From Singulisphaera sp. (GTDB lineage Bacteria; Planctomycetota; Planctomycetia; Isosphaerales; Isosphaeraceae), in contig DAIDJG010000361.1 of NCBI GenBank assembly GCA_027451445.1, forward strand, positions 1 through 64,000: 64,000 nucleotides of DNA, given 5' to 3'. The notes under the pieces are model-generated. The model had not been told where the DNA came from, searched no databases, and saw nothing but the letters and a program-made list of their open reading frames with translations. The stretch's first letter is position 1, and each line of letters opens with the position of its first letter. The translations under genes and the position numbers were made by a program. This document shows, in pieces, positions 14,033 through 30,941 of the stretch.

Positions 14033-15760
14033 TCAGGACTTGTCGCTCTCTTGATTCGGCGTGCTCGCAGCCGGAGTTTTGTCGTCCTTCGCCTCCGCTG
14101 TCGCCTTCCCCTCGGTTTTGGGGCTCGGCGACTTGAGTTCCGGGCCGAGAACGCCGGCCAGGCTGGTGTAGGGGCCGTATTCGTCGCGAAGATGAGCCTT
14201 GATCGTGGCATCGTCCTCGAAGAAGCCGGCATTGAACTTTGCCTTCGCGCGCACGAGTTCTGATTGAACGAACGCGATACGGTTTTGAATCGCCTCCCGA
14301 ACTTTCTGCGCACGTTCCTCGGCGAGCAGGTACCATCCGCGCTCGTCTTTATCTTCGGGATGGAGCTGGTGCGCGAGTTCGTCCCACACCCTGAGCTCAC
14401 CGAGATCGTCGCGTTTCTCCGCTCGCTTACTCGCCTGGCGAGAGTACGCCAGGACAGTGAGCTCGAGCTTCGTCGCGCTGCTGTTCCCGAGCGCTGCTCC
14501 GATCCTGCTGTCGAGAAGTCCGAGTCGATTGTCGGCTTCCTCGAGCAAGATCGAGTCGAGCCACTGTTTGGTTTCTGAGCGATAGGGATGCCCGGGAAAG
14601 CGTCGATCGAGCGGCTCGATGTACTCGTCTCGAGCGGTGACCCGGTCACTTCGGCTCTTGGAAGCCATCAGCGCCTTCGCATGCTGGTAGAGGTATTCCT
14701 GGCCCGGCGGCCAGAGAACGTAGGCGATTCCGGCGGCAACGAGCAGGAGAGCGAGCACGAGCGCCCCGGTCTCCAGTATCTTTCGATACTTACGGGTTTC
14801 ATCCAGCTCGGAGTGGCCGTGCGTCCGCGAGGCCTTGCGCGTTCGTTTGCCCGACTCCGTCGCCTGTCGCCCCGCCGCAGCGCCCGGCGCGGGACTCTCG
14901 GTCGTTGGCCAGGCCATCTTGATGGGTTTCGACTGAAGCACCTTATCGCGCAACTTCGTCAGCTCATGGCCCACCGCCTGCGCGTCCCAGGGACGGTCCG
15001 CCGGCTGTTTGGCCATCAGCTTCACCACCAGATCGTCGAGTGCCTTCGGAATCTCGGGCACTCGTTCGCGAGGCCGAGGCACCTCCTGATTCAAGTGGTT
15101 GTGCATCAGAATCACGGCCGTCGCACCTTCGAAGGGAGGACGGCCGGTGAGCATCTGGTAGAGCACGGTTCCGAGCGCATAGAGGTCCGTCTTGTGGCTG
15201 ACCGGTGGATTGCCGCGAATCTGCTCGGGCGCCATGTACGCCGCCGTGCCCAGCGTCCGCCCCGTCCCGGTCAACTGCTCGGTCGCATCGAGGTCCTTGG
15301 CGATCCCGAAGTCGGCAAGCTTTACCTGACCCTTCTCGTTGATCATCAGGTTCGACGGTTTCAGGTCGCGATGCACCACCCCTCGCTGATGGGCATAGTG
15401 CAGCGACTCGCTGATTTGGATCCCGAGATCGACGACCTCCTGCCAGGGCAAGGCCCCTCGCGTCGCGAGCATTTGCTCCAAGGTTGAGCCCTTGATGTAC
15501 TCCATCGCGAAGTACGAAGTGCCCTGGAAACGGCCTACTCCTAACCAGCGCACGATATTGGGATGATTGAACTGCTTGAGAATCTCCGCCTCGCGCTCGA
15601 ACCGCTTGTCCGTGTTGTTCCGCTGCGCAACGTCGTTACTGATGATCTTCAACGCGGCCAGTTTGCCCGTCGGCTCATGCTCGGCCAGATAAACCGATCC
15701 CATGGCGCCGGTGCCGAGGATCTCCTTGATCCGGAACGAGCCCAGTTTCTCGCCGATCAT
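14033..15760 (-). CDS. Membrane-anchored Ser/Thr protein kinase (Hanks type)
   Basis: A 575-residue eukaryotic-like kinase. The glycine loop GTGAMGSV is at residues 16-23, the ATP-anchoring lysine at Lys38, the catalytic HRD at 130-132 with Lys134, DFG at 150-152 and the APE motif at about 177-179. A basic, Ser/Thr-rich linker (about 285-325) leads to one transmembrane helix at 331-350 and an extracytoplasmic helical domain of about 220 residues that ends in a charged tail. Layout fits a transmembrane receptor kinase that phosphorylates Ser/Thr on cytosolic proteins; the ligand of the outer domain is unknown. The gene is monocistronic and convergent with the 13484 gene. Confidence 0.95.
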   Translation of the reverse strand: MIGEKLGSFRIKEILGTGAMGSVYLAEHEPTGKLAALKIISNDVAQRNNTDKRFEREAEILKQFNHPNIVRWLGVGRFQGTSYFAMEYIKGSTLEQMLATRGALPWQEVVDLGIQISESLHYAHQRGVVHRDLKPSNLMINEKGQVKLADFGIAKDLDATEQLTGTGRTLGTAAYMAPEQIRGNPPVSHKTDLYALGTVLYQMLTGRPPFEGATAVILMHNHLNQEVPRPRERVPEIPKALDDLVVKLMAKQPADRPWDAQAVGHELTKLRDKVLQSKPIKMAWPTTESPAPGAAAGRQATESGKRTRKASRTHGHSELDETRKYRKILETGALVLALLLVAAGIAYVLWPPGQEYLYQHAKALMASKSRSDRVTARDEYIEPLDRRFPGHPYRSETKQWLDSILLEEADNRLGLLDSRIGAALGNSSATKLELTVLAYSRQASKRAEKRDDLGELRVWDELAHQLHPEDKDERGWYLLAEERAQKVREAIQNRIAFVQSELVRAKAKFNAGFFEDDATIKAHLRDEYGPYTSLAGVLGPELKSPSPKTEGKATAEAKDDKTPAASTPNQESDKS

Positions 15761-28422: not shown

Positions 28423-29337
28423 ATGCGTCAGCGCCTATTGGTTGCAACCCTCATTGTTACGGCTCCCGCGTTGGGTGCCGACCTGCCGCCGGCCGCCGCG
28501 ATCAAGCCGGTCGAGATCGTGCGTACGGGCGACTACAGCGAGGGGGTCGTCGTTGATCACGCGGGCAACCTCTACTTCTCGCACGAGAAGATCATCACGA
28601 AGGTAACCCCCGAAGGCAAAGCTTCAACGTGGGCCGACACCGGCGCACCGAACGGCCACAAGGTACTTGCCGACGGCACACATCTCGTCTGCGACGCAAG
28701 CCGGCACGCCGTCCTCCACCTCGCCGCCGATGGCAAGATGCTCGAGCCGGCTTCCAAGGAGTCGGAAGGGAAACCCTTGCGAGGGCCGAACGACCTCACG
28801 CTCGACCCCGCCGGAGGGTTCTATTTCACCGATCCCGGCGGCTCCGACGAACGGCAACGAATCGGCACAGTCCACTATGTCGATCCGAAGGGAGTCACCC
28901 ACACGGTGGCCGATGGGCTCGCCTTCCCGAACGGCATCGTCCTACGGCCCGATGGCAAAACGCTGCTGGTCGGCGAGAGCAAGGAGAACCACATCCTTGA
29001 ATACCCCATCCAGGCACCCGGCAAGCTCGGCCCGAAGCGCGTCTTCGTGAAGCTGCCCGAGAAGGGCGAGGGGCAAATCGACAACCAGCCGGACGGGATC
29101 GCCCTCGATGCGGACGGGAACCTTTACGTCGCACACTACGGGATGCGCCAGGTGCAGGTGATCAGTCCCAAGGGCGAGATGATTCGCCGCTACCCCGGCG
29201 GAAACTTGACGACTTCAAACGTCGCTTTCGCAGGCCCCAAGATGGACCAACTCTACGTCACAGGCGGAGACCCCGGTGCGCTCTTCCGGCTCGACCTAGG
29301 CGTCCCCGGCCTGAAGATTCTGCCCCCGCGTCAATGA
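28423..29337 (+). CDS. SMP-30/gluconolactonase-like secreted beta-propeller
   Basis: A 304-residue protein with a signal peptide (about residues 1-19). Repeated strands VVDHAGNLYFS, LDPAGGFYFTDPGG, ALDADGNLYVAHYG form a six-bladed propeller of the SMP-30/LRE type. Conserved asparagine and aspartate residues (RGPNDLTLDPAGG, NQPDGIALD) match the metal site of gluconolactonases. Planctomycete paralogues are mostly of unknown function; lactone hydrolysis is possible. It overlaps the 3' end of the convergent kinase gene by 7 bases. ATG at 28423. Confidence 0.9.
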   Translation: MRQRLLVATLIVTAPALGADLPPAAAIKPVEIVRTGDYSEGVVVDHAGNLYFSHEKIITKVTPEGKASTWADTGAPNGHKVLADGTHLVCDASRHAVLHLAADGKMLEPASKESEGKPLRGPNDLTLDPAGGFYFTDPGGSDERQRIGTVHYVDPKGVTHTVADGLAFPNGIVLRPDGKTLLVGESKENHILEYPIQAPGKLGPKRVFVKLPEKGEGQIDNQPDGIALDADGNLYVAHYGMRQVQVISPKGEMIRRYPGGNLTTSNVAFAGPKMDQLYVTGGDPGALFRLDLGVPGLKILPPRQ

Positions 29338-30638
29338 TGGGAGCCCAACTTCCGCGCCAGGCGTTGGAGACAGCCGGTCCATCCCTCCTGATGACCGTCG
29401 CGACGGCCCTGGTCGCGGAAACGCTCGTGAACGAACACAACGTTTGTCGTGCCCCCTCGGGGCTGAAACTCGATCGTGATCTGGGTCTCTTGTGTCTCGT
29501 AGTGGGGCGATGACCAGGCCCAGGTGAAGCTCAAGCACCGGGGTGGTTCCACGCGGCAGTAGTGGCCCGACACGATGTACGGCTCGTCTTTACCCGGCGG
29601 GTACATTTGCACGCGATAAGCGCCTCCGACCTGCACGTCAATCGTGGCGTCCGTCGGCCCGAAATCGTCCCGAGGCGCAAGCCACTCAGACATCCCGCGA
29701 GCGTCCGTCCACGCGTCGAATACGGCCTCGACTGGCGCTGAGATGTGTTGTTCAAGCCGGATAGTGGACTCCGGCGTGCGGGAGACGCTCGTGACTTCGT
29801 CGTGCAAGTGGCGGGCTTGCTGGTAGCGCCGATCTCTTTCGTGTTCAATGGCGCGCATCACGATCGGATCCAGCCGGGGGTCGCACATCGTCTGTTTCGA
29901 TGGCGGCACATGGTCAGCTTTCGGCAGACACCCCGCCAGCATTTCGTAAAACACGACTCCCGTCGAATAGATGTCGGCGCGGTGATCGACGGTCTCCGGC
30001 GTCGTGAACTGTTCCGGGGCCATGTAACTCGGTGTGCCCGCCACACGATTGTCGTCCGGGTCGCGCACGGCTTTCGCACCGAAAAGAGTGGCCAGGCCGA
30101 AATCGACAAGCCGTACGCGACCGCGCGCGTCGATCAGCACGTTCTCAGGCTTGACGTCACGGTGGACGATCCCCGACTCATGTGCATGTTGGAGGGCCTC
30201 GGCGATCTGGGGAACGAAATCGAGCGTGTCACGCGCCGAGATCGACCGTTCGGCAAGCTTCTGCCGCAAGCTGGAGCCTTCGACATACTCCATCACGAGA
30301 TAGTAAAGATCGCCCAGTTTACCCAAATCGTAGACCGTGACGATGTAGGGATGACGCAGTTTCGCAAGCGTGCGGGCCTCGCGCAGAAACCGCGACTGAA
30401 ACTCCAAATCAGCGCTGATATCCGGACGTACGACCTTGATGGCGACGGGGCGATCGAGGAGCGGATGGTGGCCTCGGTAGACCAACCCCATGCCGCCATG
30501 TCCAAGGATTCCGGTTACATCGAGGTTGGGAATGCGCGCGTTGAGCGCTTCGGCCGTGGGCAGAGGGAACCCTGGCCGGTGAGTCGGTGATGTGAGATCA
30601 CTGTAGTCGGTTGTCGGATTCAGGTCGGCTTTAGTCAT
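29331..30638 (-). CDS. Ser/Thr kinase fused to AHSA1 (SRPBCC) domain
   Basis: A 435-residue two-domain protein. Residues 41-285 are a Hanks-type kinase: glycine loop GHGGMG at 46-51, ATP lysine Lys68, catalytic HRDVKPEN at 159-166 and DFG at 179-181, with SYMAPEQ as the activation-segment APE motif. Residues 292-433 form a START/SRPBCC domain of the AHSA1 (activator of Hsp90 ATPase 1-like) type: ISAPVEAVFDAWTDARGMSEWLAP, GGAYRVQM, GHYCRVEPPRCLSFTW, VVFVHERF and the C-terminal helix GWTGCLQRLARKL. There is no transmembrane segment. AHSA1 domains bind hydrophobic ligands or Hsp90-type clients; a ligand-sensing kinase is an inference. Start chosen at 30638 (MTKADLN), GGGAG upstream; a longer form from 30758 is possible. 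Confidence 0.9.
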   Translation of the reverse strand: MTKADLNPTTDYSDLTSPTHRPGFPLPTAEALNARIPNLDVTGILGHGGMGLVYRGHHPLLDRPVAIKVVRPDISADLEFQSRFLREARTLAKLRHPYIVTVYDLGKLGDLYYLVMEYVEGSSLRQKLAERSISARDTLDFVPQIAEALQHAHESGIVHRDVKPENVLIDARGRVRLVDFGLATLFGAKAVRDPDDNRVAGTPSYMAPEQFTTPETVDHRADIYSTGVVFYEMLAGCLPKADHVPPSKQTMCDPRLDPIVMRAIEHERDRRYQQARHLHDEVTSVSRTPESTIRLEQHISAPVEAVFDAWTDARGMSEWLAPRDDFGPTDATIDVQVGGAYRVQMYPPGKDEPYIVSGHYCRVEPPRCLSFTWAWSSPHYETQETQITIEFQPRGGTTNVVFVHERFRDQGRRDGHQEGWTGCLQRLARKLGSHH

Positions 30639-30821
30639 GTTCGTCAGACTCCCACGTTTGTTAAGCGCCTGGTGACGGGTTGTCGGGAACGAAGGTTTCT
30701 CGCGCGCCGCGCCCGCGAGATCCCCCTTTTCGATCCGAGGTGGATCGGCTAAACTCATTCCCTTCTCTCCGGCGCGGAGTCGAACCGGAGTGCGCTCCTA
30801 ATTCAAAGCATGAGGTGACCC

Positions 30822-30941
30822 GTGCCGTTCCGTCCGCGGAAGAAGAAGTTTCGAAAGGACAAGCATCACCGTTGCAAGCGCTGCGGCGGGCAGGTTCGCC
30901 GCCACATGGCACGCTGCAAGAAGTGCTCCGAGGCCCAGTAA
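30822..30941 (+). CDS. 39-residue basic zinc-ribbon protein
   Basis: A tiny gene starting with GTG at 30822 and ending at 30941. The product is very basic at its N-terminus (PRKKKFRKDK) and contains four cysteines in C-x2-C-x10-C-x2-C at 18, 21, 32 and 35 (HRCKRCGG and RCKKCSEA). This is a treble-clef/zinc-ribbon layout that recalls small ribosomal proteins such as L40e, but identity cannot be settled by eye. A GAGGTG site (30812-30817) precedes the start and a strong terminator (30978-31007) follows within 40 bases, which supports an independent expressed gene. It lies between a kinase gene and a ferredoxin gene on the opposite strand. Confidence 0.8.
   Translation: MPFRPRKKKFRKDKHHRCKRCGGQVRRHMARCKKCSEAQ

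Follow-up and report, generated by a model that had tools for sequence, protein, structure and literature searches.

Ser/Thr kinases of Planctomycetota have been surveyed with Verrucomicrobiota and Chlamydiota as outgroups, and that survey counts 105 accessory-domain groups and 307 architectures, places membrane regions in 70-80% of the kinases and found half of the 105 accessory domains just once, each in one protein from one species (PMC11032199). With so many accessory domains seen only once, a soluble kinase that carries an unusual tail and occurs just once is to be expected in the phylum. The AHSA1 family is described as having a Bet v 1-type scaffold that accommodates large hydrophobic ligands; in prokaryotes its members occur in many kinds of protein, among them ArsR-type regulators (PMC2577659). 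A limited literature search returned no paper treating AHSA1, protein kinases and Planctomycetes together, and no report of a kinase-AHSA1 pairing (the supplementary tables of PMC11032199 might list AHSA1).

Here we describe such a pairing. Both of its parts are common, their combination is rare, and the gene is apparently the product of a domain swap that happened once, in a phylum rich in kinase fusions.

A kinase and an AHSA1 domain in one reading frame

Within the 64,000-nucleotide stretch of DNA that we analysed (the window), one gene encodes a kinase joined to an AHSA1 domain. Its features are the following:

29331..30758, minus strand: whole gene, Hanks-type Ser/Thr kinase plus AHSA1 (open reading frame list, translation, Pfam)
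30639..30758, minus strand: possible 40-residue N-terminal extension (sequence inspected directly)
29778..30518, minus strand: kinase domain, residues 41-287 of the 435-aa form (PF00069, motif positions, model helix 275-287)
29763..29777, minus strand: linker of about five residues, 288-292 (secondary structure, full-length model)
29334..29768, minus strand: AHSA1 domain (SRPBCC / Bet v 1 fold), residues 291-435 (PF08327, model, Z scores)

The longest translation starts at the ATG at 30758 and gives 475 aa, while the next ATG, at 30638, gives 435 aa. GGAG lies 8 nt before the former and GGGAG about 10 nt before the latter, and with a purine-rich stretch upstream of both, either start is possible. 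An earlier note on this DNA had placed the gene at 29331-30638; its frame holds and its start is the second ATG, but it left the strand, which is minus, unstated. A scan of the locus for promoters and terminators found none. The frame is open from end to end, with no stop and no frame break, and third-position G+C shows no break at the junction, with values of 0.71 for the kinase and 0.74 for the AHSA1 part (0.78-0.79 in the adjoining genes).

The kinase domain matches the Pkinase profile PF00069 well above its cut-off (E 4.9e-50, 170.8 bits vs 31.7). In the numbering of the 435-aa form, it carries GHGGMG at 46-51, VAIK with Lys68, the alpha-C Glu87, HRD at 159-161, DFG at 179-181 and GTPSYMAPE at 201-209, a complete set of catalytic motifs. 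With the profile match and its Lys, Glu, HRD and DFG, the protein is a Hanks-type Ser/Thr kinase with predicted phosphotransfer activity, which bears out the earlier description of an intact kinase with Lys68, HRD and DFG. Its C-lobe is short and of a 'PPSK' type common to many planctomycetal and verrucomicrobial kinases, which is why the profile is matched only to position 210. The best PDB matches of the full-length model are PknB-type kinases (Foldseek). Assignment to the PknB/Stk1 PASTA kinases was rejected, as NF033483 scored 272.9 bits vs 450, a membrane segment is missing and Pfam gave no PASTA match. No transmembrane stretch was detected anywhere in the fusion protein (highest 19-residue hydropathy mean 0.94 vs a threshold of 1.6), in agreement with the earlier note, which had seen no membrane segment between the domains.

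The second domain is likewise well defined. PF08327 is matched over positions 2-122 of 125 (E 5.4e-25, 88.5 bits vs a cut-off of 22.1), and this match, together with a helix-grip fold, places the domain in AHSA1 / SRPBCC. Modelled alone, it reached a pLDDT of 92.7 and resembled solved AHSA1 proteins most closely, with Z scores of 21.3 over 142 residues for 1z94, 19.1 for 2lcg and 19.0 for 3eli. Scores were 16.2 for the human Aha1 C-terminal domain (1x53), 14.9 for an Aha1-Hsp90 structure (6xle) and about 15 for abscisic acid receptors of the PYL family, which are a ligand-gated use of a Bet v 1-type fold. The family-conserved residues W36, G56, G75, H133, G136 and W137 are kept. The structure prediction that the earlier note had proposed thus returned both folds. 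In the full-length AlphaFold2 model (mean pLDDT 82.7), the last kinase helix spans 275-287 and the first AHSA1 strand begins at 293; the pTM of 0.65 leaves the relative placement of the two domains uncertain. The kinase does run directly into an AHSA1-type domain, as had been noticed from the letters. Both domains are intact, in the same frame and free of a membrane segment, and both are predicted to fold.

Rarity of the pairing

In the host genome, 123 matches to Pkinase and six to AHSA1 were counted, and both occur together only in the fusion gene. To survey other genomes, long open frames with AHSA1 were taken from the sampled genomes and then checked for a kinase, which none had. About 1,500 sampled genomes, examined through their best AHSA1 matches, contained no second kinase-AHSA1 frame: none in the family (45 genomes), none in the phylum (392), none in the genomes of kinase relatives (13), and none in samples of the phyla of G446 (289), G454 (195), G455 (297) and G456 (296). 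As the survey covers sampled groups and best-scoring AHSA1 matches, weaker or unsampled fusions may be missed. Of the plasmid records, 1002 had a match, none of which reached a query coverage of 80%; viral contigs gave no match. The pairing is therefore very rare, and a claim of uniqueness would go beyond the sampled search. A search for the architecture in Planctomycetota, called for earlier, has thus revealed no widespread family among the sampled genomes.

Several candidates for a second fusion were discarded. The long AHSA1 frames of relatives either repeat AHSA1 in tandem or show no kinase match, and L050, matched up to query residue 391, has a membrane tail after its kinase rather than an AHSA1 domain. 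Proteins with two or three AHSA1 domains in tandem are frequent both in Planctomycetota and in other sampled phyla (e.g., L032, L038, L131, L133, L187, L206 and L215). In L145 (439-1959, minus strand), AHSA1 opens a 507-residue frame that continues into apparent metallo-beta-lactamase-type sequence (THGHFDH), either a fusion or two overlapping genes.

Origin of the fusion

The closest kinases, about 50% identical across the kinase domain, come from Planctomycetota and Verrucomicrobiota. Of the dozen nearest, almost all continue past the kinase into predicted membrane segments, and a Pfam scan of ten of the tails found no domain. Within the host genome, the best other kinase matches reach only about 42% identity. 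For the AHSA1 domain, identity to its best relatives is 33-43%, and at these distances the fusion gene is no fresh copy of anything sampled. In an AHSA1 tree built by a quick method, its sister group has a support of 80 on long branches, for which reason we leave the donor unclaimed.

The locus itself offers a further comparison. In the family member G005, an SMP-30 gene and a zinc-ribbon/ferredoxin pair keep their order around the position of the kinase, and the place of the kinase gene is taken by a 170-aa hydrophobic ORF without a Pfam match (L236:1755-2267, plus strand); the part of the G005 interval alignment that spans the kinase region carries no meaning. G001 belongs to the host's genus; a search there found no comparable gene, and SMP-30 is followed by a different gene. 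Membrane tails in the closest kinases, and the lack of a kinase between the same flanks in G005, together point to a tail swap specific to one lineage, in which AHSA1 probably took the place of a membrane tail. The simplest reading of these related sequences is that the gene arrived late, in the host lineage, with loss in the other lineages as the alternative.

Two other genes of the window deserve mention. Next to the kinase gene and divergently transcribed lies a gene with a GTG start for a basic protein of 39 residues that has two CxxC pairs (window 30822-30941, plus strand), well conserved in G005 (L236); its match to the zinc-ribbon profile PF18073 is below threshold (18.8 bits vs 25.7). 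The window also holds a second Hanks-type kinase of 575 aa (14033-15760, minus strand), whose kinase domain is followed by a hydrophobic segment and which is the best Pkinase match of the host genome.

Possible functions of the fusion

The Bet v 1 fold is a scaffold for large hydrophobic ligands, and this favours tuning by a small molecule. We therefore propose a soluble Hanks-type kinase with complete catalytic motifs in which, in one lineage, AHSA1 would replace the usual membrane tail and its pocket would, going by the fold alone, most likely hold a hydrophobic small molecule. Since AHSA1 begins about five residues past the last kinase helix, occupancy of the pocket would alter kinase activity, dimerisation or placement, and the outcome would be a cytosolic sensor kinase in one protein. 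Judged from fold and layout, we regard a cytosolic kinase tuned in this way as a plausible proposal whose chances fall slightly short of even. The stricter version, in which a small hydrophobic molecule in the fused pocket switches the soluble kinase directly and so makes it a cytosolic receptor kinase in one protein, in a layout without description in the literature searched, is more doubtful. The absence of a second case in the sampled genomes means that conservation cannot show that the fusion was kept for a purpose, and the neighbouring genes gave no clue to a ligand, substrate or partner.

The main rival to a ligand sensor is substrate docking, in which AHSA1 would recruit a substrate protein or a partner for the kinase and no ligand in the pocket would be required. 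The fold does make protein contact in the Aha1-Hsp90 structure, and a splice form of the wheat kinase WKS1 that lacks its START domain can neither bind nor phosphorylate the substrate (PMC9266299). Yet the nearest structures are stand-alone bacterial AHSA1 proteins rather than Aha1, the conserved residues are kept as an ordinary fold predicts, and no partner gene lies nearby. We consider docking rather unlikely.

A serious third option, though again an unlikely one, is a chance fusion of two working domains that are functionally uncoupled in one lineage. Its occurrence in a single genome among those sampled would suit such an event, as would the one-off character of half of the accessory domains in the kinase survey (PMC11032199) and the fact that G005 has the flanking genes without the fusion gene. 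Against this, both domains have kept their defining residues and have a normal codon composition, and both are distant from their sampled relatives.

It is highly improbable that AHSA1 serves as an Aha1-like Hsp90 (HtpG) co-chaperone that couples the kinase to the chaperone. The Pfam family name and the fold match to the human Aha1 C-terminal domain speak for it, but many stand-alone bacterial AHSA1 structures score above Aha1, and the Pfam scan gave no match to the Aha1 N-terminal domain up to E 1, the kinase standing in its place, which makes this reading weak. The earlier suggestion of a ligand sensor or a docking module is thereby narrowed: a ligand sensor is the best-supported guess from the fold, and docking to Hsp90 is unlikely.

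Finally, the joining of two neighbouring genes by an assembly error or by a sequencing error, the latter named in the earlier note as a possible refutation, deserves almost no weight even in a draft genome of 622 contigs with 4.77% estimated contamination, because the five-residue gap in a continuous frame with continuous third-position G+C is too short for an out-of-frame intergenic piece, and because the gene order to either side is the same in the family member, so that the assembly looks sound here.

If the two domains are coupled, the protein would connect, in compact and soluble form, a Bet v 1-type ligand pocket to a bacterial Hanks kinase, in a phylum where most such kinases have membrane regions. 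If they are uncoupled, it would illustrate once more the ease with which kinases of the phylum exchange their tails. In either case, the picture of the field is unchanged.

Comparison with known systems

Eukaryotic Aha1 shares the fold of its C-terminal domain with the AHSA1 part of the fusion but has the Aha1 N-terminal domain where the fusion has a kinase, and we set aside an identity as an Aha1 co-chaperone on this ground. Wheat WKS1 (Yr36) has the same order of parts: after its kinase comes a C-terminal domain that belongs to the same broad superfamily of folds (PMC9266299). Its domain is a plant START domain (PF01852), whereas that of the fusion is a bacterial AHSA1 domain, with no match to PF01852 up to E 1 anywhere in the protein; we rejected a WKS1-like kinase-START identity, and the two are likely independent parallels. 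Stand-alone bacterial AHSA1/SRPBCC proteins (1z94, 3eli, 2lcg, 3q63) agree with the fusion's domain in fold, length and conserved residues, but they are single-domain proteins, while here AHSA1 comes after a kinase. On the kinase side, the PPSK-type kinases of Planctomycetota and Verrucomicrobiota (e.g., L010 and L047-L054) are like the fusion over the whole kinase domain, at about 50% identity, and share its short C-lobe, its PPS(K/R) segment and the way the last helix ends. Their tails are mostly predicted membrane segments without a Pfam domain, whereas the tail of the fusion is AHSA1.
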